Shown: piece after piece, positions 1,895 through 48,335 of the stretch
How the letters are laid out: each line of letters begins with the position of its first letter
Position numbering within the stretch: position 1 is the first letter of the stretch
Origin: Telopea speciosissima
Lineage: Eukaryota > Streptophyta > Magnoliopsida > Proteales > Proteaceae
NCBI RefSeq assembly: GCF_018873765.1
Contig: NC_057925.1
Coordinates: 5,405,568-5,469,567, forward strand
DNA: 64,000 bases
Direction of reading: 5' to 3'
Position numbers and translations under genes: made by a program
The notes under the pieces: model-generated
Told to the model about the DNA's origin: nothing
Database searches by the model: none
Seen by the model: the letters and a program-made list of their open reading frames with translations, nothing else

Positions 1895-1970
1895 GCCCTA
1901 TAACGGAATATTCAAATGTTCAAAATTTGAATTCCCAACTGAACGAGTCAAGAGAAGAGGAAGCCGTTCT
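1895..1970 (+). repeat. Inverted copy of 3391-3480
   Basis: The roughly 75-90 bases here reappear almost unchanged as the reverse complement at about 3391-3480, including AACGGAATATTCAAATG. The two copies bracket the copia gag remnant, so the remnant sits in a loop between inverted arms. The outer flanks on both sides also carry a CAGGGTTTTAAA motif. Confidence 0.7.
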
Positions 1971-3360
1971 AGAAGTAAAACATCATTAAGAGTAAAATGT
2001 TGAATATAAGAAGTGCCAGTATTTTTGATAACCAAACCTGCACCATTTCCAACCCGTACTTGGTCAAAACCTGTGTAAGGAGAACTGATGTTCAAGTTGC
2101 CCAGGTCGAAAGTAATATGATGAGTAGCACTCGAGTCGGGGTACCACGCTGAGTCAAAAGACGCAGATGGAGTTGCTAATAATGCTTCAATTTGGGTTGA
2201 TCCAGTTGATGGTGAAGGAGGTTGATAGTTTGGATTAAACTTGTTGTAACAAGTTGCTGCCGTATGATTGGTTCTATGGAAGATTTGACACCCGAAACCG
2301 ACAGTTGATGGTGCTTGATTATTCTGCTGGTTGGAACCGCGGCCTCCATTGTTGTAGTAGTTCCTGCGGCCACCACGTCGTCCTCCAGTATTGTAAGAGC
2401 CACGGCCACGGTTGGAGTTGAAAGAGGAATTGTTGGAGTTCTTTGTAGCCATATTGGCTTCCACCGTGGGTAGGTCAGGCTGTGAAGTGTGCTGACCTTT
2501 GAAAATCTCCTGGCTGAGAAGCATGCCCGTGAAATCCTCCTATGGTAGTGGCTCAACACGAGTTGTAATGGACGTTGCAAAGGACTCATAGTCCGGTCCT
2601 AACCCTTGTAGGGTACTGAGAATAACATCAGAATCAGGCATAGGATTGGCTGCTGCAGCAAGGTTGTCAACCAAGCTTTTCACTCGTTGAAGATACTCCG
2701 TCATTGTAAGTGTGCCTTTCTTTAATTGAAGAAGTTGATATTTGAGTTGCATCACGCGTGCTTGCAACTGCGATGCATAAGTTCGTTCAAGAATTTTCCA
2801 TGCAGCGGCTGATGATGTTGCACCAATAATTTGGCCAAGTGCACTCTCGGTTAAGGAAGAAATGATCCAACTTAAGATGATCTGGTCTTGTCTCCGCCAA
2901 GTCAAATATGTTGGATTAGGAGTTGGATCAGTGGATGAAGAGGTTGGAGTGGTGGACAACGTCTGAGGTGGGCATGGATGAGTTCCATCGACAAACCCAT
3001 AGAGATCATATTCATGGAGAAGGGGAATAAATTGAGACTTCCACAGCAGGTAGTTGGTGCGATCGAGTTTCACTGGCAGCAAGGAAACAATATTCGTGGG
3101 AGAAATGGTGGTGGGCTGGGTAGCAGTAGCTTAGGTGACAGTGGCGGAGTCGTCTAAGTTTGTCATGGTGGTGGTGAGAGACGTGTGTCAAGGGCGACTG
3201 ATACCAAGATAGAACTGAGAAACCAAATTGAAGTTGAATAGTGGTATTTCCCCTTATCGTCTTTATCGACTTGGGGTTTAATTTTTATTGATTCAAAGTG
3301 TACAACGTTACACAAAACTTGTTACAAGGATAGAAATTGATTTCATGTAAACTCTCCTAA
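1895..3360 (-). mobile_element. Ty1/copia gag-protease remnant (fossil)
   Basis: Minus-strand translation gives a copia gag (UBN2-type) region at about 2540-3082 with the typical LVDNLAAA and LQGLGPDYESF blocks. It is followed by a Gly/Arg/Asn-rich stretch, a CCHC-like zinc knuckle and the start of the protease/pre-integrase region near 2050-2180. A TGGTATCAG-like primer site lies near 3200-3212 and LTR-like sequence follows it to about 3360. Integrase, reverse transcriptase and RNase H are absent. The element is a broken 5' portion, moderately old. Confidence 0.75.
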
Positions 3361-35320: not shown

Positions 35321-35940
35321 GAGAATTTATTCTCAGAAATTGATCTACCAATTGGATTTCTTATTCTTAAATATTTTAGATTGATGTAACCAAAACAATT
35401 TCGTTTTCTTGACTGAAAATCTATTTGTTGATTATTTTATGAAATCAATTTGAAAATGAAATTGAAATTATGCCAAATCAGCCCTTAGTCTATTCACGTT
35501 TCTGTTGAGGTTCTTATGGTCACCACAACCATGGATGTGGCGTCCTTTCTAGTTCGAGGTGAGACTAGATCAGACTCAGCCTAATTCGGCTGGATTCTGT
35601 ATCTTCGTATATAATATATCGCAGACTCCATTCCACATCAGCAGCGTGTAGATATTTCTTCTTTTTTTTCTTTCTTTCCAGCCAAGAAGTTGATGAAATT
35701 TTGGCTGTAGAAAAAGCAATTCCCTGTCTAGGGAGACTTACTTTTATGGCAACCCAGATAGACTTGCAAGAGGAAAAATGATCGAGAGTCTGGGAATTGC
35801 TCCTCTCCCTCTCCATATTTTGTTTATCATAGCCTTTCTCCTATTATTTAGTTCTTCGATTGTTAATACATCTTTTAATTGCTGCAAATTACCATAATTG
35901 TGGTTTCCATTGTTGGAATGAACGTGTAAATAAGAGGAAG
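35321..35940. other. Unannotated intergenic stretch
   Basis: No gene or element with clear ends is seen between the PPR remnant and the start of the LTR array. Confidence 0.45.
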
Positions 35941-36639
35941 TGTTGAGACGTTGAGAGTATAAGTATAGTTCCACATTGGTTATTTGGTCTTTGTCCGGTT
36001 ATTGTTCTTCTTAAATTATGTTACACGTGTAGAGATAGTTATGCTGAAACTACATGTGAAGGGGAGTGTTGAAATGTTGAGAGTTATAGAGGTATAAATC
36101 GGTTAAGTTCGGTCTTTGGTGCTTTCATATATATACTTGAGTAGCTATCTCTACCTAATGCTTAGCCTTTCTTTGGGCTCAAGGAGCAACAAAGACAAGA
36201 AAAGGAAATGGTGGTACCCTCATATTTTTCGCTAATTCCTACCGGAAATGGTAGAACTTTGAAGAAGGATGGGGTGGATCCACATAAGTTTACATGGTCT
36301 CTTTAATTAATACATGTTGTCCGTTAGTTTATCATGCTAGGGAATCAAACAATTGTGGTTTTTGGAATTTTATGAAAAATCAAAGTATCCACACCTTTAT
36401 TCACACCCCAATTTTTTTCTGTCTAACAAAGGTTTTGAGTTGAACCCCTGTTTAATTGTTTAAACAAATATTTTAAAAGGGAGAGGGTGGGGCTCATCAC
36501 CCACTCCAAGTGAGCAAGCGATCTTGCGCAGTGGAAGGAGTTGGGTGGTCCTTTCCCATTACAAGGGAGGAGAGATGCCCCTGCGACATGTCCACCTTTT
36601 CCCATTTTTAAATTTGAAAAATTCAAAATACATTATGTT

Positions 36640-37338
36640 TTGTGTGTTTTCATTTTTAATTGTCAATATTTTCATCTTCTTTTATGACCTTTCATTTGTC
36701 TATCTTTTTTTAATTATCACATGACCTTTTATGTATTTACTAGGTATATTTGTCTTATCTAGAAAGTTTTTAGACTTTGTCACTTCATGTATGAGACTAT
36801 ATCTATTTAATTTCTCTTGAGTCTTTGTCTCTTTATTTTAGAGACTTTTATTACTTCATCTTCTTGAGACTTTGTCTCTTTATCTCTTCTTTAGAAGTCT
36901 CCCTTCCTCTATATATAGAGGGGACTTCTCCGCATTGTGATTACGAAGTTCTCTCAAGTCATTATTGTGAAAGTTGAAATCTTGTTTCTCTTATTTTGAG
37001 TGTCAAATTAAATTTGTTTTAAGTGTTTTACTTTTAGTTTGAGCACAACGATGCAATACTCGAAAGGGGGTTAATTAGTCCAGTGTACGACTTGGAGTGT
37101 CAGTGGGTTGTTTTATCTTAGAGGTTGATTCAGAATTCACCCGATTGCGACATTGGGGGATGTTTATAATCTTAAAGAGTGTCAAGTGGAACGATTTAGC
37201 TCATCTGTTTTGCTAACATAATGTTTGTTACAAGATCTCTAAGAATTCGTGGAACAAAGATCTTTTGAAGAATCAACAACTTGAAGATAAATGTATTCTC
37301 TCAATATTTTAACATATATTTTCTAACACCCTCCAACA
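36640..37338 (+). mobile_element. Longer LTR variant with TATA box (part of array)
   Basis: This block carries CTATATATAGAGGGG (36909-36925) and an R/U5-like end reaching the primer site at 37339. The same U5-like end recurs at about 47650-47859 before another primer site. It may be the LTR of the larger partner that mobilised the short elements, or a longer relative. Confidence 0.5.
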
Positions 37339-40300
37339 TGGTATCAGAGCTAAAGTCCATTTGTTATCCTTTCTAAATTATTTGTTCACGTATAGAGTCA
37401 AGTATGCTGAGATACACGCAGGGGGAAGTGTTGAGAGATAGAAAGTTATAGAGGTATAATCTCACATAAGTTTGATCATTGGGTGCCTTCATATACATGA
37501 TGAACTATTTCCACCTAATGCCTTAGGCCTCGTTTGTTTGGTAGGAAAAAAATGGGTGGTAAAAGAAAAGTCATGTACCCCCATATAATGAGGTCAGAGA
37601 CCAAAAAAGGCAAGGAAAAAAAAACAGTGATAAAAAATGAAATTTAAAATAAGTCATTCTCACAAAATCCTACTGAAAATGGTAAAGGATCGTTTGTTTG
37701 ACGGGGACTTATGTGAGGTGGGAGAGTTAGGATGAGAAAATGTTGATGTGGCACTTCAAAATTCCACCCCAACCTTGTTTGGTTAACCTGTGGTGATGAA
37801 CTTATAAAAGCTTAGGGAATAGCATTAAATGCTTTGTTTGCTGACGTGACACTTGAAACCCACCCTTATCCTATCCAAAGTCTACCGAATGGTTATTATT
37901 TATGAAAAAAAATAAAAATCTCACCCCTATTACCTAACCCACTACATTGTGAGACTCAGTCCCATAACATTCCCACCCCCATCCTCCCAATCAAACAAAT
38001 GGGCCCTAAGACTGTAAGGAAGAATGGGGTAGGATAATTTCCTTACCATATAAGTCAATATGATTTTTTTTAATCAATGCATGTTTTCAGTTAGTTTTTC
38101 ACCCTAGCCAACCAAACAACTATGGTTTTTTAAATTCTATAGAAAACCTTTAAAGTATGTCACATTTTGTCTTCATCTTTTATTTTTTAAGTTAAACACA
38201 CATGGTCTGAAGTTTTTGGATGGGACACTCTAACATGGTATCAAAAATCAAGTTTGTTTGTTGTTCTCCTAAAATTATTTGTCCACGTGTAGATTTAGGT
38301 ATGCCAAAAATACACGTGAGGAGAAATGTTGAGATGTTAAAAATTATAGAGGTATAGTCTCACATCGGTTAAGTTCAATCCTTGGGTGCCTTCATATACT
38401 TGATGAGCTATTTCCACCTAATATCTTAGGCCTCGTTTATTTGATAGAAAAAAAAAGAAGTGAGAATGAAAAAGTCATGGGTTCCACATATAATGAGACC
38501 AAGGAACAGCAAAGGTAAGGAAAGAAAAAGTGGTAAACAATAAATTTCAAAATAAATTAATTTATATCCCCGTCATTCTCACAAATGAAAAATTGTGATA
38601 GAAAAATATTGATGTGACACTTCAAAATCCCAGATGAACTTACAAAAGCTCAGGGAACAACATTAAATGTTTTGTTTGCTGATGTGACACTTAAAAATCC
38701 ATTCCTATCCTATCTAAAGTCCTACCAAATTAGTGGGACTTTGAGTACTATTCATGAAAAAAATAAAAATCTAATCATAATTTTCTCCAACCCATTACAC
38801 TGTGGGATCCAGTCTAATAACATTCACACATCATCCTTTCCGTTAAACAAATGATCATTTAGCAAAAGAAAAGGGGTGGGATAGTAGAAGAGATGGGTTC
38901 CATGTGTAATGGAGTAGCTCAACAGAAAATAGAAGTAAAGGAAACGATGACAAAAATTGTTTTTCTAAGCCTCAAATCAATAAAATAACCAATTCTCCCT
39001 TTCCCCACAAAAATCCTACTTACGAGGGTGAAAAAATTTGACTACCACGTAAGTCGACAATCCCCTTAAATTATGGATAGTTGTCTCATCAGTTCTCCTA
39101 GCACAGCAACCAAACAAACATGAGTTTTGGTATTTTATGGAAAACTTACATTTTTTTACCCAAATTTTTTCCAACAAACAAACAGGCCGTAAGACTTTGA
39201 AAAATGATGGGGTAGAATAATTCTCTTGTCATATAAATTGATAGTGTCTTTTTAATCAATACATGTTTTCGGTTAGTTAACCACCCCAGGAAACCAAACA
39301 ATTGTGATGTTTAAAATTTTACGAAAAATCTTTAAAGTTTCTCACCATTTATCTTCATCCTACATTTTTCCGTCAAATGAACAAGGCCTGAAGGTTTTTG
39401 GTAGGACACTTCAACATGGTATCAGAGAGTGTTGAGATGCTGAAAATTATAAAGGTATAATCTCACATCGATTAAGTTCAATCTTTGAACCTTCTAATAT
39501 TTTTCTCAAAACATAACCAACTGATTTTACAAGTGAATGTTAAATCTTTAGAGTAGTCAGGTCTATTCTCTCCCACAATTTGCATAGAAAAAATAAAGGA
39601 AAATACTATGTAACAAATATTAGGTACTATAAGTGCATTTATTATGCAAACATCAATCAACAGTTAGCAGAACTCAGTGCCATGAGAAAAAGTACCAAAT
39701 CTTTACCATGTGAAATCTTATCAAACTTGAGTTTTAGAGTCAGTTGATATCCTCCTTTAGGGGTTCAACGATCTCAATAATGCTAGCACAAGTTCTTTGT
39801 ACAATCTGTAAAATCCTAGATGGAAGTCCATCACAGAGTAAGATCCCTTTTAACAATATTGGAGTTGATACTGACAAGTAGACATGATGATGATCTAATT
39901 GAGGAGCATGCACAACATTTACCTTATGAGAGACAATATATGTTTCATGCATGTAACTATTTAGTGAAAAAATAATGCAGTTGATTATGTTCAGTATTTG
40001 TGTGTGAATAAGAGGAATCGTAAAAAAAGAAAAAGACGTACAATACAAAGAGAAATAACAAGAGGATGAGGCAGAGTAACCCCAAAAGGCCTTGCAGAGA
40101 GCCACCAAAACATTGTCTAACAGAAGAACACCATGACTATTTCGAGGAAGAGATCACCAAGCACCAGCGGTAACAGCAAGAAAATAGGATGGAGGTGACC
40201 CATTTGATGAGCGGGAAAACACGGACTCGGATATATAAAATCGCGGGTCGATTGCAAGCCAATATAACTTTCCACAAAAAACATGTACAAAAAAACATAA

Positions 40301-40343
40301 CATTTTGTAAGTCTGGATTAATAGAAAACACAAAGTTGTTTAT

Positions 40344-40574
40344 TATTTTCTCGGAGATCGAGGTGCTTGAACGTTAAACAATGTTCGTGATCAATGGCTT
40401 TAGAACATTCCTGTACCAGCTGATGTCTACCGATCAAGCAGTGCGATTGTCCGCAGAGCAAGTTCTTCAGCTCATTAAAGAGAGGAGACCTAATAAGTAT
40501 TGTCAACACTTCATTGTTACTGTTTCTCCCTTATATAACAATGACCGCTACACAAGGGTCATGACGGCAAGGTT
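40344..40574 (+). pseudogene. Importin-5 (IPO5/KETCH1) gene fragment, copy 0
   Basis: Reads IEVLER, FRTFLYQLMS, SAEQVLQLIKERRPNKYCQH and YNNDRYTRVM. It matches the N-terminal HEAT repeats of plant importin-5 (FETLISHLMSS...RSSAEALF...). It ends where the SOBIR1 fragment begins (40574/40575), and the importin sequence resumes at 42118 with about 25 shared bases. Confidence 0.65.
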
Positions 40575-41700
40575 TTGATTTTAGATCGGATTTGCCGTAG
40601 CTTCTTATTGAGGAATTTGCTATCTTTGTCTGCAAGCTCAGTTGTAGCGGTGGGCTGCTGAAGATGAGGTTGAAGTATCTTCTTAATGGCAATGATCTTG
40701 TCGTTGCTTCCTGGAAGCTCGGTCTTGTAAACTTCTTCGCAGCCTCCTTTTCCGATGAGCTCTAGCTAAGACAATCCATCTACTTTCTCGAGGAAGGCTA
40801 TGGCCTCGACGTCCTTGATCAATGAGGAACTGAAGATCATTACTGGGCTCGAGTCTTTCACTTTGCGTCTGATGCACACCCAGAGCTTCTTGAACAAAAA
40901 CGTTAGTATCAACCACGATATTATCCCTGCAGCAGCACCACAAAAGAAGCTGGAGGTCGACCTTTTGAGCTTTCTTTTGCTCGTATGATGTTTGTGGGAT
41001 GCAGAAGGGGATGGAGCCTCGGCATTGGAGGATTTTAATTTACTAGTGGCCGATGGTGATGGTGCGATGGCAACCCCTCCTATTCCATGATTACTCTTTG
41101 AGGAATTCTCGGCCAATATGTAGCGCTTGGGGAGACTTATAGTTCTGGTTTTGATCTTCAACCTGGGGGAGTTGAAATAGCCAACTTGATTCATTGTTGG
41201 GACGGGACCTTAGAGGTAATTATTTCTTGAAAGATTCAGGTATTGGAGACTTCGGAAAGATCGTAGTGAATTTGGTATTCTTTCATAGAAAAGATTATCG
41301 GCGAGGGAGAGGTTCTCAAGATTGGAGAAATATCTTAAGAAACTCAGGTCACCAGAAAATCTATTTAAAGAGAGATCAAGGGAGTGGAGATGTACGAGGG
41401 AGGACACCTCCGACGGAACCTTACCGAAAAAGCGATTATTCTGGAGATCTAAGATCTCAAGTTTCTGGCAGTCAACGATATGGGACAATGAGGTTGTTGT
41501 TCGACAAGAAGAGCTCTTTGAGTTCCGACAATCGTCTGATGGAAGGAGAGAGAGATCCGTTGAGGCCTTGAGAGTGAGGACGATCCGAGTGACTCGAAGA
41601 ACCGACGGTGACTCAGTGGAGATTCTATTCTCTCAATGAATACATGTGATCTCATGGCAGGGATTTCCATTTCTTAAAGCTAAACTATGGAGTTGAGGAG
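40575..41700 (-). pseudogene. SOBIR1: SOBIR1-like LRR receptor kinase fragment
   Basis: Minus-strand blocks in SOBIR1 order: LSPSIRRLSELKELFLSNNN (about 41500-41560); an LRR run LEILDLQNNRFFGKVPSEVS through LENLSLADNLF and LQYLNLSRNNYL (41215-41488); KRYILAENSS; a Ser/Pro and Lys-rich juxtamembrane stretch; the transmembrane helix AAAGIISWLILTFLFKKLWV (about 40905-40965); FSSSLIKDVEAIAFLEKVDG; and the kinase start LIGKGGCEEVYKTELPGSND with IAIKKI. SOBIR1 is the adaptor kinase for receptor-like proteins in plant immunity. The copy stops after the alpha-C region at RQIRSKIKT, so it lacks the catalytic loop and most of the kinase. It has an in-frame TAG at 40766-40768 and a frame change near 41200. 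It appears intron-free, as the parent gene is. Confidence 0.88.
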
Positions 41701-41749
41701 TGGAAAAACTGAAATTGGTCCAGACTTGGATGCTCTCTCCACACTTTAC

Positions 41750-42117
41750 ATGTGGATAAATAATTTATATAGAATCACACATTTATAACTCCTAACATCT
41801 CAACACTCCTATCACGTGTATCTTCGATATACCTGACTCTACTCGTGGATAAAAAATTTAGGAATGACAACAAACAGATCTAGTCTCTGATATATGTTAA
41901 AGGGTTTAACCCAAAATCTTAAGTTCAGTTTATTGACGGAAAAATACTTTAATATTTTCTATAATATTATAAAAATCATAGTTATTTGGTTGCCTAAGGT
42001 AGTAAAATAATCGGCAACATACATTAATTAAACGGACCATGTCAATTTATGTGGCAAGGGAGTTATTCCACCCCACCCTTTTTTATGGTTCATTATTATT
42101 CTAAATTTTATTTTTTA
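41750..42117 (-). repeat. Inverted arm of the TRIM LTR
   Basis: The reverse complement of this stretch matches 42770-43130: LTR 3' part, decayed primer site (TATATCAGAG on the minus strand near 41885-41896), short internal region and next LTR start. With the forward copy it forms a large palindrome whose loop holds the importin remainder. Confidence 0.8.
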
Positions 42118-42540
42118 TCATCATTTTCATGACCGCTACGCACGGGTTATGGCGGCGATCTTGATACGATAATTTTTCATATGGGATGTTACTGATTTTT
42201 GTTTATGACTGCGATTTTACCATTTTAACCAGAAAACCTAAAGAGTGCCCTTTTTTTCTGTGTTAGACATGAATCGAACACTTTGATAACCAAATGTTTT
42301 TGAAAAATCATGGGGTGGCATCCGTCTTCATCATTCGCTCTTCGAATTAGTTGGAACTACTTCCCCTTCTCTTCAGCTGCGCCCGTTTTGATCATTTATT
42401 GTGTAAATTGGTTGTCAAAGTTGTTGATTTTCCTCCTTTCCTCATTTGAATTTTTTTTTATTCTTCTTAAATTTTGCTTCAACGGTAATTTCTTGACAGA
42501 TATCTCAATCTTAAGACAGTTATAACCGCCTAAAAAATAG
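42118..42540 (+). pseudogene. Importin-5 fragment, continuation/copy A
   Basis: It starts inside the exon at the bases for DRYARVMAAILIR and continues through the same downstream sequence as copy B, spaced 1398 bases from it. Only the later part of the exon is present. Confidence 0.65.
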
Positions 42541-43180
42541 TAACTCCTTATTTGACATCTGTAAATTGACCGTTCTTTAGTTTTTCGATCAAAATATTTT
42601 CTTATGAACTATCCTGATCGAAACTCTTAACACAACATTTTCAGTAATGTTTTTCGATCACCTATCTCCACCTAATGCCTTAAGTCCCGTTGGTTTGACA
42701 GAATAGAAAAAAGTTATGGACTTCATATGTAATGGGCTCAAAGAGTACTAAAGGTAAGGAAATAAAATGATGGTAAACAATAAATTTTAGAATAATAATG
42801 AACCATAAAGAAGGGTGGGGTGTAATAATTCCCTTGCCACATAAGCTGACATGGTCCGTTTAATTAATGCATGTTGTCGATTATTTTACTACCTTAAGCA
42901 ACCAAATAACTATGATTTCTACAATATTATAGAAAACCTTAAAGTATTTTTTCGTCAATAAACAGAACTTAAGGTTTTGCGTTAAACCATTTAACATAGT
43001 ATCAGAAACTAGATCTGTTTGTTATCATTCCTAAATTATTTATCCATGAGTAAAGTCAGGTATACCGAAGCTACACGTGATAGGAGTGTTGAGATGTTAG
43101 GAATTATAAATGTATGGTTCTATATAAATTATTTGTCCACATGTAGAGCTAGGTATGCCGAAGATACACATTAGAGAACG

Positions 43181-44573
43181 TGTTGAGATGTTGAAACTTA
43201 TAAAGGTATAATCCCACATTGGTTAAGTTCAGTCTTTGATGCCTTAAAAAACATATACAAAAAGACATAACATTTTGTAAGTCTGGATTAATAGAATTAA
43301 ACATAAATTTGTTTATTATTTTTTCAGGGATCGAGGTGCTTGAACGTCAAACAATGTTCGTGACCATCGATTTTAGAACATTTTTGTACCACCTGATGTC
43401 TATCGATCAAGCAATGCGGTCGTCCGCAGAGCAAGTTATTCAGCTCATTAAAGAGGGGAGACCGAATAAGTATTGTCAACACCTTATTGACACTGTTTCT
43501 TCCTTGTATAACAATGACTGCTACACACGGGTTATGGCGACGATCTTGATACGACAGTTTTTCATACGGGAAGTTAATGATTTTTGTTTATGGCTGCGAC
43601 TTTACCATTTTAACCAGGAAAACCTAAAGAGTGCCCTTCTTTTCTGTGTTAGACATAAATCGAACACTTTGATAACCAAATGTCTTTGAAAAACCGTGGA
43701 GGTGGCATCCGTCTTCATCCTTCGCTCTTCAAATTGGCCGGAACTACTTCCTTTTCTCTTCAGCTACGTCCGTTTTGATCATTTATTGTGTAAATTGGTT
43801 GTCAAAGTTGTTGATTGTCCTCATTTTCTCATTTGAATTTTTCTTTTATTCTTCTTAAATTTCGCTTCAACGGTAATTTCTTGACAGATATCTCAATTTT
43901 AAGGCAGTTATAACCGCTTAAAAAATAGTAACTGCTTATTTGACATCTGTACATTGACCGTTCTTCAGTTTTTTTATCAAAACATTTTCTTATGAACTAT
44001 CTTAACCGAAACTCTTGACACAACCTTTTCAGTAATATTTTTCAGTCACCTATCTCCACCTAATGCCTTAAGCCCCGCCCCGTTGGTTTGGCAGAATAGA
44101 AAAAAATTATGGACTTCACATGTACTGGGCTCAAAGAGTAATAAAGGTAAAGAAATAAAATGATAGTAAATAATGAAATTTAAAATAATAATTAACCATA
44201 AAGAAGGGTGGGGTGTAATAACTCCCTTGCCACATAAGCTGACATGGTCCGTTTAATTAATGTATGTTGTCAATTATTTTACTATCTTAAGCAACCAAAT
44301 AACTATGGTTTCTACAATATTATAGAAAACCTTAAAGTATTTTTCCGTCAATAAACATAACTTAAGGTTTTGAGTTAAACCCTTTAACATAGTATCAGAA
44401 ACTAGATCTGTTTGTTGTCATTCCCTAATTATTTATCCATGAGTAGAGTTAGGTATACGAAAGCTACACGTGATAGGAGTGTTGAGATGTTAGGATTTAT
44501 AAATGTGTGGTTCTATATAAATTATATGTCCACATGTAGAGCTAGGTATGCCGAAGATACACATTAGAGAACG
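43181..44573 (+). repeat. Tandem unit 2 (1393 bases): LTR carrying an importin insert
   Basis: The unit begins TGTTGAGATGTTGAAACTTA, enters the importin insert at about 43247, returns to LTR sequence at about 44040 (CACCTATCTCCACCTAATGC), meets a decayed primer site near 44390 and ends at the next start. Unit 3 (44574-45856) matches it closely but is about 110 bases shorter. Confidence 0.8.
43323..43800 (+). pseudogene. Importin-5 (IPO5/KETCH1) gene fragment, copy B
   Basis: The best preserved copy: FRTFLYHLMSIDQAM, RSSAEQVIQLIKEGRPNKYC, YTRVMATILIRQFF, NDFCLWLRLYHFNQENLKSA and LLFCVRHKS. Then, in another frame near 43731, NWPELLPFLFSYVRF. Arabidopsis importin-5 has the same chain (LLRKLL...DDAYLWPRL...SLKSSMLYCIQH...GWPELLPF), so the assignment is firm. 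Importin-5 carries cargo such as ribosomal proteins into the nucleus. A pyrimidine-rich tract ending in CAG just before the fragment looks like the parent intron acceptor, meaning genomic DNA rather than spliced mRNA was captured. The fragment is not functional. Confidence 0.8.
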
Positions 44574-45856
44574 TGTTGAGATGTTGAAACTTATAAAGGT
44601 ATAATCCCACATTGGTTAAGTTCAGTCTTTGATGCCTTAAAAAATATATACAAAAAGACATAACATTTTGTAAGTTTGGATTAATAGAATTAAACACAAA
44701 TTTGTTTATTATTTTTCCAGAGATCGAGGTACTTGAACGTCAAACAATGTTCGTGACCATCGGCTTTAGAACGTTCTTGTACCACCTGATGTCTATCGAT
44801 CAAGCAATGCGGTAGTCCGCAGAGTAAGTTATTCAGCTCATTAAAGAGGGGAGACCGAATAAGTATTGTCAACACCTTATTGACACTGTTTTTCCCTTGT
44901 ATAACAATGACCACTACACATGGGTTATGGCGACGATCTTGATACGACAGTTTTTCATACGAGATGTTAATGATTTTTGTTTATGATTGCGACTTTATCA
45001 TTTTAACCAGAAAAACCTAAAGAGTGCCCTTCTTTTGTGTGTTAGACATGAATCGAACACATTGAGAACCAAATGTCTTTGAAAAATCGTGGAGGTGGCA
45101 TCCGTCTTCATCCTTTGCTCTTCAAATTGGTCGGACTACTTCCCCTTCTCTTCAGCTGTGTCTGCTTCGATCATTTATTGTGTAAATTGGTTATCAAAGC
45201 TGTTGATTGTCCTTTTTTTCTCATTTGACTTTTCTTTTTATTCTTCTTAAATTTCCCTTCAATGGTAATTTCTTGACAGATATCTCAATCTTAAGACAGT
45301 TAATCCAGATAGAAACTCTTAATATAACATTTTCAATAATATTTTTCGGTCACCTATCTCTACCTAATGCCTTAAGCCCCGTTGGTTTGACAGAATAGAA
45401 AAAAGTTATGGATTTCACATATAATGGGTTCAGAGAGTATCAGGAAAAAAATGATGATAAACAATGAAATTTAGAATAATAATGAACCATAAAGAATGGT
45501 GAGGTGGAATAACTCCTTGCCACATAAGTGACATGGTCTTTAATTAATGCATGTTGTCGATTATTTTACTACCTTAAGCAACCAAATAACTATGGTTTTT
45601 ACAATATTATAGAAAACCTTAAAGTATTTTTGTCAATAAGGAACTTAAGGTTTTGGGTTAAACCCTTTAACATAGTATCAGAGACTAGATCTGTTTGTTG
45701 TCATTTCTGAATTATTTATCTAAGAGTAAAGTCAGGTATACCGAAGCTACACGTGATAGGAGTGTTGAGATGTTAGGAGTTATAAAGGTGTAGTTCTATA
45801 TAAATTATCTGTCCACATATAAAGCTAGGTATGTCGAAGATACACATGAGAGAACG
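44574..45856 (+). repeat. Tandem unit 3 (1283 bases): LTR carrying an importin insert
   Basis: Same order as unit 2: LTR start, importin fragment (copy C, about 44716-45180), LTR remainder from about 45345, primer site near 45673, short internal region. By eye the two units differ at roughly one base in fifteen to twenty, apart from gaps. Confidence 0.8.
44716..45180 (+). pseudogene. Importin-5 gene fragment, copy C
   Basis: Same segment as copy B at the same place in the next tandem unit, including FRTFLYHLMSIDQAM, IKEGRPNKYCQHLI and MATILIRQFF. It is more decayed than copy B. It arose by duplication of the LTR unit, not by a separate capture. Confidence 0.75.
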
Positions 45857-46308
45857 TGCTGAGATGTTAAAACTTATAAAGGTATAATCCCACATTGGTT
45901 AAGTTCAGTCTTTGGTGCCTTCATATACTTGAGAAGTTATCTCCACCTAATGTCATAAACTTTATTTGTTTGACGAAAAAAATGGTGAAAAAAAAATTCA
46001 TAGATTCCACATGTACTGCGGTCAAAGAACAGCAAAAACAAAGAAAGAAAACGACGATTAAGGATGAAATTTATAATAAAATAATAGGTCTTGAAGAAGA
46101 GTGTGGTTGGATAATTCTCTTGTCACTTAAGCCAACAAAGTCTTTTTAATTAATGTATACTATCAGTTAATTTATCACCTCGAGCAACCAAATAACTATG
46201 ATTTTTGAAAATTTATAGAAAACTTTTAAAGTGTTCAACCCTTTTATCCCACCCACTTTTTTCTGTCAAACACACAAGGCTTAAGATTTTGAGTTAGGCC
46301 TTCCAACA

Positions 46309-46685
46309 TAGTATCAGAGCCTAGGTCCATTTGTTATTCTTCTTTAAATTATTTATCAATGTATAGAACTAGGTCCACATTATGTGGTCGTTTCATATGT
46401 TTGGCTTTTGGCGACGTCGTACAAAATTACCTCATATGTCATGCTCCAATAGTCTTCCATTTAAGGTTATATCCATAGGACATTCTTACACAAGTTTTTC
46501 TACATGTTTTTTTTTAGACTGACCTTAGTTACTAACATGGTACCAGAGCGTAGGTCCGTTTGTTATCCTTCTTTAAATTATTTATCAATGTGTAGAACTA
46601 GTCCACATTATGTGGTCATTTGACATGCTTGGCTTGTGACGACGTCGTACAAAGTTGGCACATATGTTGTTGATGCAAGACAAAC
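46309..46685 (+). repeat. Doubled primer-site leader, ~230-base spacing
   Basis: About 135 bases beginning at the primer site (46309) and containing TTATTTATCAATGT, CACATTATGTGGTC and GACGTCGTACAAA recur from 46538. The second copy has TGGTACCAGAGC as its primer site. It is a local duplication of the element leader. Confidence 0.75.
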
Positions 46686-46689
46686 CCTA

Positions 46690-47640
46690 AAAACTAAGGT
46701 ATCCCGCATTAGGATAGGATCACAGGTTGTAGCACCTAATATGGACTTAAAACAAGGACTGGAATTTGCACAACGTTACATTCAGCATTAGAACTAAATA
46801 ACAGAATTTTTCAATAGCAAGATAACATCATAAATCAAATGAATAAATACCTTAAGCTTTAGGAAATAATTTAGCAACAAGTATGGTTAGTTCCACAAAG
46901 CTAGGTAAGAAAATTCAGGGCATTGCGTTCAAAGAATCATTAAACATGAATGACAGTCATATAGATTAATAAACTACTAATTAGAAGCACTAGAAATATA
47001 TTTAATATCATGAAAATTCAGCCATTTCAAAATAGGTATTGTTTCGAGACTGAAAAGGGTGGAAACACTATGCAAACAAAAATATAAAATTTTGTTTCAA
47101 GGTTAAGAAGAAATGATAGAATGTAGGGGTTGAGCTAAGGTTAGGGTTTTTAAGATAAACTAAGGAATGTGGTTGAGATGGCTAATGATAGGGTTAGGAT
47201 GGGGAAGAAGGGGATTTCGATTGGGAGAGATGGAGAGGAAAGGCGCTTTGGTTGGGGAGATGGAGGGGAATGGCGATAATGGGGTCTGGAGAGTTTCGGC
47301 CATAAGGGACAAGAGGGGAAGGGGTTTTGGTATCAGGGAATGGGAAGGGTATTCAAACCTAAGAAAGATGCCTTGATTTTAGTGCATTTTGATTTTCAAA
47401 ATTCAAAGCACAACACTCATTGTCTCCACTACCTCGATTTACACGCCCATTTAAAAAATTAACTCTAAGACTTTAAATATCATATAATTATACCATACTG
47501 AATTCATACCGAATATACCATATATCAAACCGATATAATATGGTACGGTATCGGTATGGTCAAGTCACCCCTACACCCGGTATAGTACGGTTTCGATATG
47601 GGGTGTGTGACTTCGATACCGTACCAAAAACCGATATCGT
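46690..47640. other. Segment of unknown origin inside the LTR array
   Basis: It includes a purine-rich stretch (47100-47380) and, at 47490-47640, the CGGTATCGGTAT-type repeat seen elsewhere in the window. No gene recognised. Confidence 0.4.
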
Positions 47641-48016
47641 ACCAAATTGACATCTATACCCGATTGTGTCATTGGAGATGTCTATGATCTTAAGGAGAGT
47701 ATCAAGTGAAACGAATTAGTCTTTCAGTTTTGCTAACATAGTTTATGCTATAGGATTCCTAAGAGTTTGTGGAACGGAGATCGTTCAAAAGATCAACAAC
47801 TTGAAGATAATTGTATTCTATTAATATTCTAACATATACTTTTCTAACACCTTCCAATATGGTATCAGAGCTCAGGTCCATTTGCTGTCCTCCTTAAATT
47901 ATTTTCACATATGGAGCCAAGTATACTGAAGTTACACGTAAGAGTTAGTATTGAGATGTTAGGGTTATAGAGGTGTAGTCCCACATCGGTTAAGTTTGGT
48001 CTTTAGTGCCTTCATA

Positions 48017-48335
48017 TTGTTAGAAAAACAATGCAACAGAATGACGATTTTATAAAAGAAAAACAAAGAGAGAAAAATCAAGCACACAAGCCAATGATTT
48101 TACGTGGTTCACCCCCACGAAGGAAGGCTACATCCACAGCCGAGCGATAGTCCGAATTCACTATTTCTGTGAAGAAAATACAAACTCTCTCTTCCATCTC
48201 TCAAAGAGATAACCACAATATATAAGAAAACCCTAACCCACAAAAGTACAAAATTTGCCCCCAGAAATCCACTTGGTCTGATCCGAATCACCATAGGGCG
48301 AAATACATATCAAATCAAAGTTCTCGATGACTTCA
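48017..48335. mobile_element. LTR-like fragment of another element
   Basis: It starts TTAGAAAAACAATGCAACAG and contains GATTTTACGTGGTTCACCCC, a sequence style common in plant copia LTRs. Neither end nor a primer site could be fixed. Confidence 0.35.

Follow-up and report, generated by a model that had tools for sequence, protein, structure and literature searches.

A stretch of 64,000 nucleotides from Telopea speciosissima (contig NC_057925.1, positions 5,405,568 to 5,469,567 of the forward strand; hereafter the window, with coordinates counted from its first base) contains an array of a small element resembling terminal-repeat retrotransposons in miniature (TRIMs), in which a decayed piece of host DNA of importin-5 type is lodged inside the long terminal repeats (LTRs). 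The piece has an intra-LTR position and a shared junction, and the LTRs follow each other head to tail with a primer site and a purine-rich stretch at the joints. The explanation we favour, with a probability of about 0.62, is that host DNA was inserted into one LTR by break repair and that LTR-mediated unequal recombination followed.

Array architecture and position of the insert

Self-comparison and a motif scan resolved the region of 36–48 kb as a same-orientation head-to-tail run of related LTR units together with one inverted piece (Table 1). The best self-match aligned 42129–43910 with 43514–45302 (1790 columns, 92.5%), in agreement with the preliminary description of this DNA, which had placed two units (43181–44573 and 44574–45856) head to tail. 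LTRs D (43181–44389) and E (44574–45672) of these units, numbered 2 and 3, carry an extra 800 and 714 bp, respectively, between a head running from TGTTGAGATG to GCCTT and a tail running from CTATCTCCACC to AACA. The insertion point is uninterrupted in LTRs A, B and F (alignment of the five LTRs A, B, D, E and F) and in the sequence of LTR O, and the insert replaced at most about 16 bp of the LTR (CATATACTTGAGAAGT in F). Since the head and the tail fit together, the insert lies inside one LTR and not between two; it disrupts the TATA-like region just after the head. The normal LTR head and tail around 0.7–0.8 kb, the empty LTR at 45857–46308 and the host fragment copied together with its LTR, all proposed in the preliminary description, were thus borne out by the alignment, with the insert found within the LTR ends in both complete copies. 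The truncated copy and the split copy that it had located at 42118 and 40344 also exist, the former starting at 42129 and the latter spanning 40276–40566.

The heads of the LTRs start with TGTTGAGATG, of which variants occur in the motif scan; LTRs A, B, D and E begin with TGTTGAG and end with AACA, and LTR F begins with TGCTGAG. Tails ending in AACA directly adjoin a primer site of the TAGTATCAGA or TGGTATCAGAGC type, and the TGGTATCAGAGC-like sequence is one that we take to be of the initiator-methionine transfer RNA (tRNA) type. Each complete LTR (A, B, D, E and F) has a purine-rich stretch before it and primer-site sequence after it, the former being clean before A (AGGGGGAAG) and B (GAGGAGAAA) and weaker before D and E (TTAGAGAACG). 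The internal region measures about 90 bp before A and B and 184 bp in the filled units, where it is double, consisting of a first part (int1), an LTR-head remnant and a second part (int2). LTRs D, E and F are linked solely by the primer site, the internal region and the purine-rich stretch, and inspection of the junction sequences at the between-unit joints revealed no 5-bp target-site duplications.

With similar LTRs bounded by TG and CA, a primer site, a purine tract and a short non-coding internal region, the element has the features of a TRIM, and the D-E-F series those of a tandemly arrayed TRIM (TA-TRIM), that is, at least three LTRs sharing internal regions head to tail. The LTRs of TRIMs are very short, about 100–250 bp. 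LTR F has 452 bp, A about 0.8 kb and B about 1.1 kb, part of which is perhaps secondary insertion; because the LTRs exceed 100–250 bp, the family is TRIM-like and not a strict TRIM. A scan of viral contigs with the exact pattern of the LTR head returned 0 stretches.

Table 1. Features of the array region, in window coordinates.
Feature	Position	Strand	Evidence and remarks
LTR O, diverged unfilled member	36068–36450 (right end approximate)	+	Uninterrupted head-tail junction; tail outside the filled clade
LTR A, importin site empty; another extra segment lies further downstream	37429–38235	+	Alignment; AGGGGGAAG before, primer-site-like sequence after
LTR B, importin site empty; has a relative of the A segment and additional sequence	38327–39416	+	Self-comparison, alignment
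LTR head of copy C	39430–39488	+	Directly after a primer site, intervening internal region missing; motif scan, head distances
Segment X (787 bp, origin unassigned), between C head and importin piece	39489–40275		Matches nothing else in the window
Importin insert, left part, copy C	40276–40566	+	87.8% to unit 2 (BLAST); Kimura two-parameter (K2P) distance 0.126
Leucine-rich repeat (LRR) receptor-kinase gene fragment, broken (LRRs to kinase start)	40581–41743 (left boundary approximate)	-	Pfam LRR_4, 5.3e-9
Inverted copy I: filled-unit LTR tail, primer site, part of double internal region	41744–42127	-	91.4% to 42764–43148
Importin insert, right part, copy U1	42129–42661	+	Self-comparison, distances
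LTR tail of U1	42662–42996	+	93.3% to D tail
U1 primer site and double internal region	42997–43180	+	int1, LTR-head remnant at 43087, int2; motif scan, distances
Unit 2 (D), LTR head	43181–43245	+	Alignment; box one mismatch from the plant small nuclear RNA (snRNA) element RTCCCACATCG
Insert in LTR D, 800 bp	43246–44045	+	Importin-5-type decayed block about 43327–43771, flanks AT-rich; hmmsearch rank 1 of 1610
LTR tail of D	44046–44389	+	Alignment, distances
D primer site and double internal region	44390–44573	+	Motif scan, distances, junction listing
Unit 3 (E), LTR head	44574–44638	+	Same as D head across all 65 bp
Insert in LTR E, 714 bp	44639–45352	+	About 90-bp deletion relative to D; four in-frame stops including the shared one
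LTR tail of E	45353–45672	+	Alignment, distances
E primer site and double internal region	45673–45856	+	Motif scan, distances
LTR F, unfilled	45857–46308	+	Alignment; head close to D/E, tail distant (see text)

Identity and decay of the inserted piece

One frame of the unit-2 block is open over 148 codons save one stop, the other five frames having 4–13 stops. Profiles were run with hmmsearch against 1610 open reading frame (ORF) fragments of the window. With a two-sequence importin-5 profile, one member of which is a provisional Arabidopsis sequence, the block ranked first (expectation value, E, 1.8e-11), and ranks 2–4 went to other pieces of the insert with weak values (E 0.0074, 0.012 and 0.031). 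A profile made only of the PDB sequences of IPO5, Kap123 and IPO4 also put the block first (E 0.0037) and its continuation second (E 0.14), followed by unrelated fragments at ranks 3–4. These rankings support, at the family level, an assignment of the block to importin-5, with the N-terminal HEAT repeats alignable. The identity amounts to 48/133 (36%) with the provisional Arabidopsis sequence and 34/136 (25%) with human importin-5. As the former value is only 36%, the direct parent was probably a diverged importin-5-like gene copy; the IPO5/KETCH1 label given earlier is apt for the family.

The stop following KCL/KCF is common to D, E and U1, and since all three have it, it predates the amplification; E has three more in-frame stops upstream of it. 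The flanks of the block are AT-rich (81 bp on the 5' side; T content of 0.44–0.46 on the 3' side), in keeping with intron DNA. A T-rich tract and CAG precede the opening of the frame in D and E and are altered in C; that they form an intron acceptor is no more than plausible. Differences at the first, second and third codon positions numbered 11/149, 8/147 and 12/148 between D and E, 10/71, 7/71 and 10/71 between C and D, and 13/85, 6/84 and 5/85 between U1 and D, so none of the three comparisons has a clear third-position excess. By these measures the importin piece is dead and has been drifting, with no sign of protein-level selection, and a coding function of the fragment was rejected on the combined grounds of stops and codon-position counts.

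Divergence and copy history

The heads of D and E have a Kimura distance of 0. Distances for the left part of the insert were 0.061 (D–E), 0.126 (C–D) and 0.130 (C–E), and for the right part 0.092 (U1–D), 0.135 (U1–E) and 0.121 (D–E); among U1, D and E, the tails ranged from 0.070 to 0.092 and the internal regions from 0.055 to 0.103. Overall, K2P distances among units by segment spanned 0–0.135, the lowest values, besides those given above for the head and left insert of D–E, being those of U1–D for int2 (0.028) and for the internal region (0.055), which suits patchy exchange. At plant substitution rates of 0.65–1.3e-8 per site per year, distances of 0.06–0.13 would correspond to roughly 2–10 million years.

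A tree of eight tails (U1, D, E, I, F, O, A and B; about 200 bp; the tail-less C and G excluded) grouped U1, D, E and I in one clade with an ultrafast bootstrap of 100 and a long stem (0.163), the other four tails falling outside it. The four clade members also have the double internal region in common, and their tails have a single origin. Because they share both the tail clade and the double internal region, one filled unit was amplified locally and is the source of the other filled units, which arose at different times or with patchy exchange. This evidence agrees with a single insertion and subsequent tandem duplication on the spot; the earlier wording, by which an active element carries and multiplies the fragment, lacks support. 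Where the left part of the insert in C and the right part in U1 overlap, 5/26 bases differ by eye, so that the two look like pieces of separate copies.

LTR F differs from D at 3/65 positions in the head and at 93/324 in the tail (Fisher P 6.5e-6), and D, E and F come together in the head tree (support 71); the low divergence of the F head would suit exchange within heads. A role of LTR F as a recent empty progenitor is unsupported: its tail is 70–71% identical to the filled tails despite a head identity of 95.4% with D and E.

Origin of the filled LTR

The series of events we prefer starts from a small non-autonomous LTR element of TRIM type that would already have been present as an old head-to-tail array of LTRs and internal regions. 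One LTR would have taken up about 0.8 kb of host DNA with the importin-5-like gene piece, which would have entered at the TATA-like box directly behind the head and cost the LTR up to about 16 bp. The uptake most likely took place at the DNA level, as filler in break repair. The filled LTR with its double internal region would then have been multiplied by unequal recombination between neighbouring LTRs or units, leaving the units D and E, the truncated U1 and C and the inverted piece I. Break-repair capture, unequal recombination and the order of events are the steps that we infer.

Several observations weigh against parts of this explanation. The break-repair step has left no specific mark; a 7-bp TTCAGTC near both insert ends may be due to chance, and the boundary of the insert is fixable no better than to about 16 bp. 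Segment X separates the head of C from the insert and may point to an originally longer insert. As to the importin-5 assignment, human IPO5 alone gave E 0.46 with the insert block, a phmmer search of the block against PDB yielded no importin match, and Pfam returned no importin family, whether queried with the block itself or with three readings in which X replaced the stops. The window holds no empty progenitor of the filled tail lineage, the tail of F differing by 29–30%. Moreover, the head divergence of F–D is not significantly below that of B–D (3/65 vs 9/65, P = 0.13), heads being conserved generally, and the informative sites (49 for U1=D, 33 for U1=E and 29 for D=E) favour no duplication order strongly, leaving the affinity of U1 to D weak.

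Capture at the RNA level, whereby template switching into the LTR would have given rise to a transposing filled TRIM subfamily and the array would have formed by concatemer reverse transcription or by recombination after insertion, seems rather unlikely. Template switching has been held responsible for the foreign sequence borne by the LTR of BARE-2 (PMC13317346) and is discussed as one route to the arrays of Cassandra (PMC7215508). The inverted piece I, with the same tail lineage and double internal region, would also agree with this route. However, no filled LTR with target duplications was seen in the window, and the filled units are joined to one another directly. On both sides of the ORF block the insert is rich in AT and looks non-coding, unlike the TRIM captures in print, which are exon-only and sit in the internal region (PMC4717578); it also interrupts the TATA-like part of the LTR.

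The filled LTR could also be a composite of two independently truncated LTRs that flanked a host pseudogene piece by chance and was then duplicated. Many LTR pieces of the region are indeed truncated or rearranged, but where the two parts meet no more than about 16 bp of about 450 are lost, an improbable outcome of independent breaks, and we regard this origin as improbable as well. There is a slim chance that a DNA transposon (Helitron or Pack-type) carrying the importin piece jumped into the LTR: by the end rules for Pack-MULE and Helitron carriers, inspection by eye of the insert ends found no terminal inverted repeats, 8–10 bp target duplication or Helitron-type ends, although Pack-MULEs do carry exon plus intron pieces (PMC4717578). 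A false duplication in the assembly has nothing in its favour but the general risk in repeats, and its probability is close to nil. It was rejected because the units differ by 5–12% over segments of >100 bp and have unit-specific indels, which also argues against the assembly artefact considered in the preliminary description.

Comparison with known systems

Tandem TRIM arrays are common, having been reported for 129 TRIM subfamilies in 35/43 genomes (PMC4717578). Wukong forms arrays of up to seven LTRs, ascribed to recombination (PMC4528315); Cassandra forms long tandem arrays, with a precedent for TRIM arrays arising by recombination (PMC7215508); and an array containing inverted TRIMs is shown in the TA-TRIM literature (PMC4717578, PMC4528315). 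Like TA-TRIMs (PMC4717578) and Wukong (PMC4528315), the present elements are short, non-autonomous and arranged in head-to-tail LTR-internal arrays; unlike in those systems, it is the LTR that contains the captured piece, whose flanks look non-coding, and an empty LTR is longer, at 452 bp. Gene capture by TRIMs was described for 30 elements of seven subfamilies, in internal regions and exon-only (PMC4717578).

Host or foreign sequence within LTRs is known from Cassandra, Helenus and Ajax (PMC10886601) and from BARE-2 (PMC13317346). The T. speciosissima locus shares a host-derived sequence within a TRIM LTR with Cassandra (PMC7215508, PMC10853983) and with Helenus and Ajax (PMC10886601), which, however, are widespread elements carrying a small-RNA gene and, with it, a promoter, whereas the cargo here is a dead protein-gene piece seen in this array. 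A Cassandra or Helenus identity of the filled LTR was ruled out, given 0 Rfam matches (5S ribosomal RNA included; E up to 1) across positions 35800–48200 and 0 tRNAs found by ARAGORN in the window. BARE-2 and VejuL (PMC13317346, PMC1950507) are likewise an LTR or element altered by acquired foreign sequence, which in those cases is retrotransposon-derived or of unstated source and ascribed to template switching, and here is a host gene piece.

Among the matches listed from the open-licence literature, as far as their accessible text goes, none described TRIM LTRs that harbour part of a protein gene and were amplified as an array. The preliminary description had called the arrangement unusual, and this is apt for a protein-gene fragment in an LTR; it does not extend to the tandem array (PMC4717578, PMC7215508) or to foreign or host sequence in an LTR, with Cassandra, Helenus and BARE-2 as precedents. 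As far as can be told, the novelty of an arrayed LTR with part of a protein gene in it is modest, the parts being of known kinds and their arrangement uncommon.

Unlike cargo in the internal region, cargo in an LTR would end up at both ends of the element whenever it transposes, and LTR-LTR recombination could act on it as well. Judging from this locus, part of a protein gene that is lodged in an LTR may be multiplied in place via the repeats themselves. The locus is one further small example of gene-fragment amplification in TRIM arrays, and its importance hinges on whether there are filled copies elsewhere in the genome.

Promoter-like boxes and further segments in the LTRs

The snRNA-element box RTCCCACATCG was found with 0–1 mismatch in six heads (38357, 39460, 43211, 44604, 45887 and 47978, the last one perfect). 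In the unfilled LTRs B and F, it stands about 25 bp before a CATATAC-like box, a layout that resembles a plant U6-type promoter, for which an exact spacing rule exists. The consensus is that of the upstream element of plant snRNA genes (PMC9845283). Sites with up to 2 mismatches number 32 in the window vs 18.2 in shuffles, the box-bearing heads being homologous and hence not independent counts; two sites with 1 mismatch lie outside heads. The insert takes the place of the TATA-like box and supplies another (CATATAC in D and TATATAC in E), which stands about 31 bp downstream of the snRNA-type element, compared with 25 bp in the unfilled F (by eye). That the importin piece became fixed in a transposable filled LTR subfamily, with the new box possibly altering LTR transcription and a protein-gene fragment thereby turned into promoter DNA, is very unlikely.

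An inverted-repeat segment resembling a miniature inverted-repeat transposable element is present in LTR tails at 45953–46286, 38424–39194 and 37522–38010. When seven tails were compared with 200 shuffles each, B and F exceeded all of them, U1 and E fell just below the maximum, and A, D and O did not stand out. LTRs A and B also contain a further segment elsewhere in the LTR (alignment), and foreign DNA may have entered these LTRs on more than one occasion. A second LTR-tail-like kind ending in a primer site precedes two family heads (37139–37494 and 47658–48017, 78.7% alike over 366 columns, heads included), which suggests hybrid LTRs.

Neighbouring gene fragments

At its internal-region side, the usual reported place of TRIM captures, the inverted copy I is fused to a second host gene piece, the minus-strand LRR receptor-kinase fragment (40581–42127 in all). 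In a phmmer search against PDB, this fragment matched GSO1 (4.5e-52) and the SOBIR1 chain 7ctv_A (7.7e-26 over query residues 237–329). The longest minus-strand ORF of segment X (137 codons) had no Pfam match above the cut-off. Far from the array, a Copia-type gag on the minus strand (1898–3130; Pfam Retrotran_gag_2, 4e-19) belongs to a separate LTR element.

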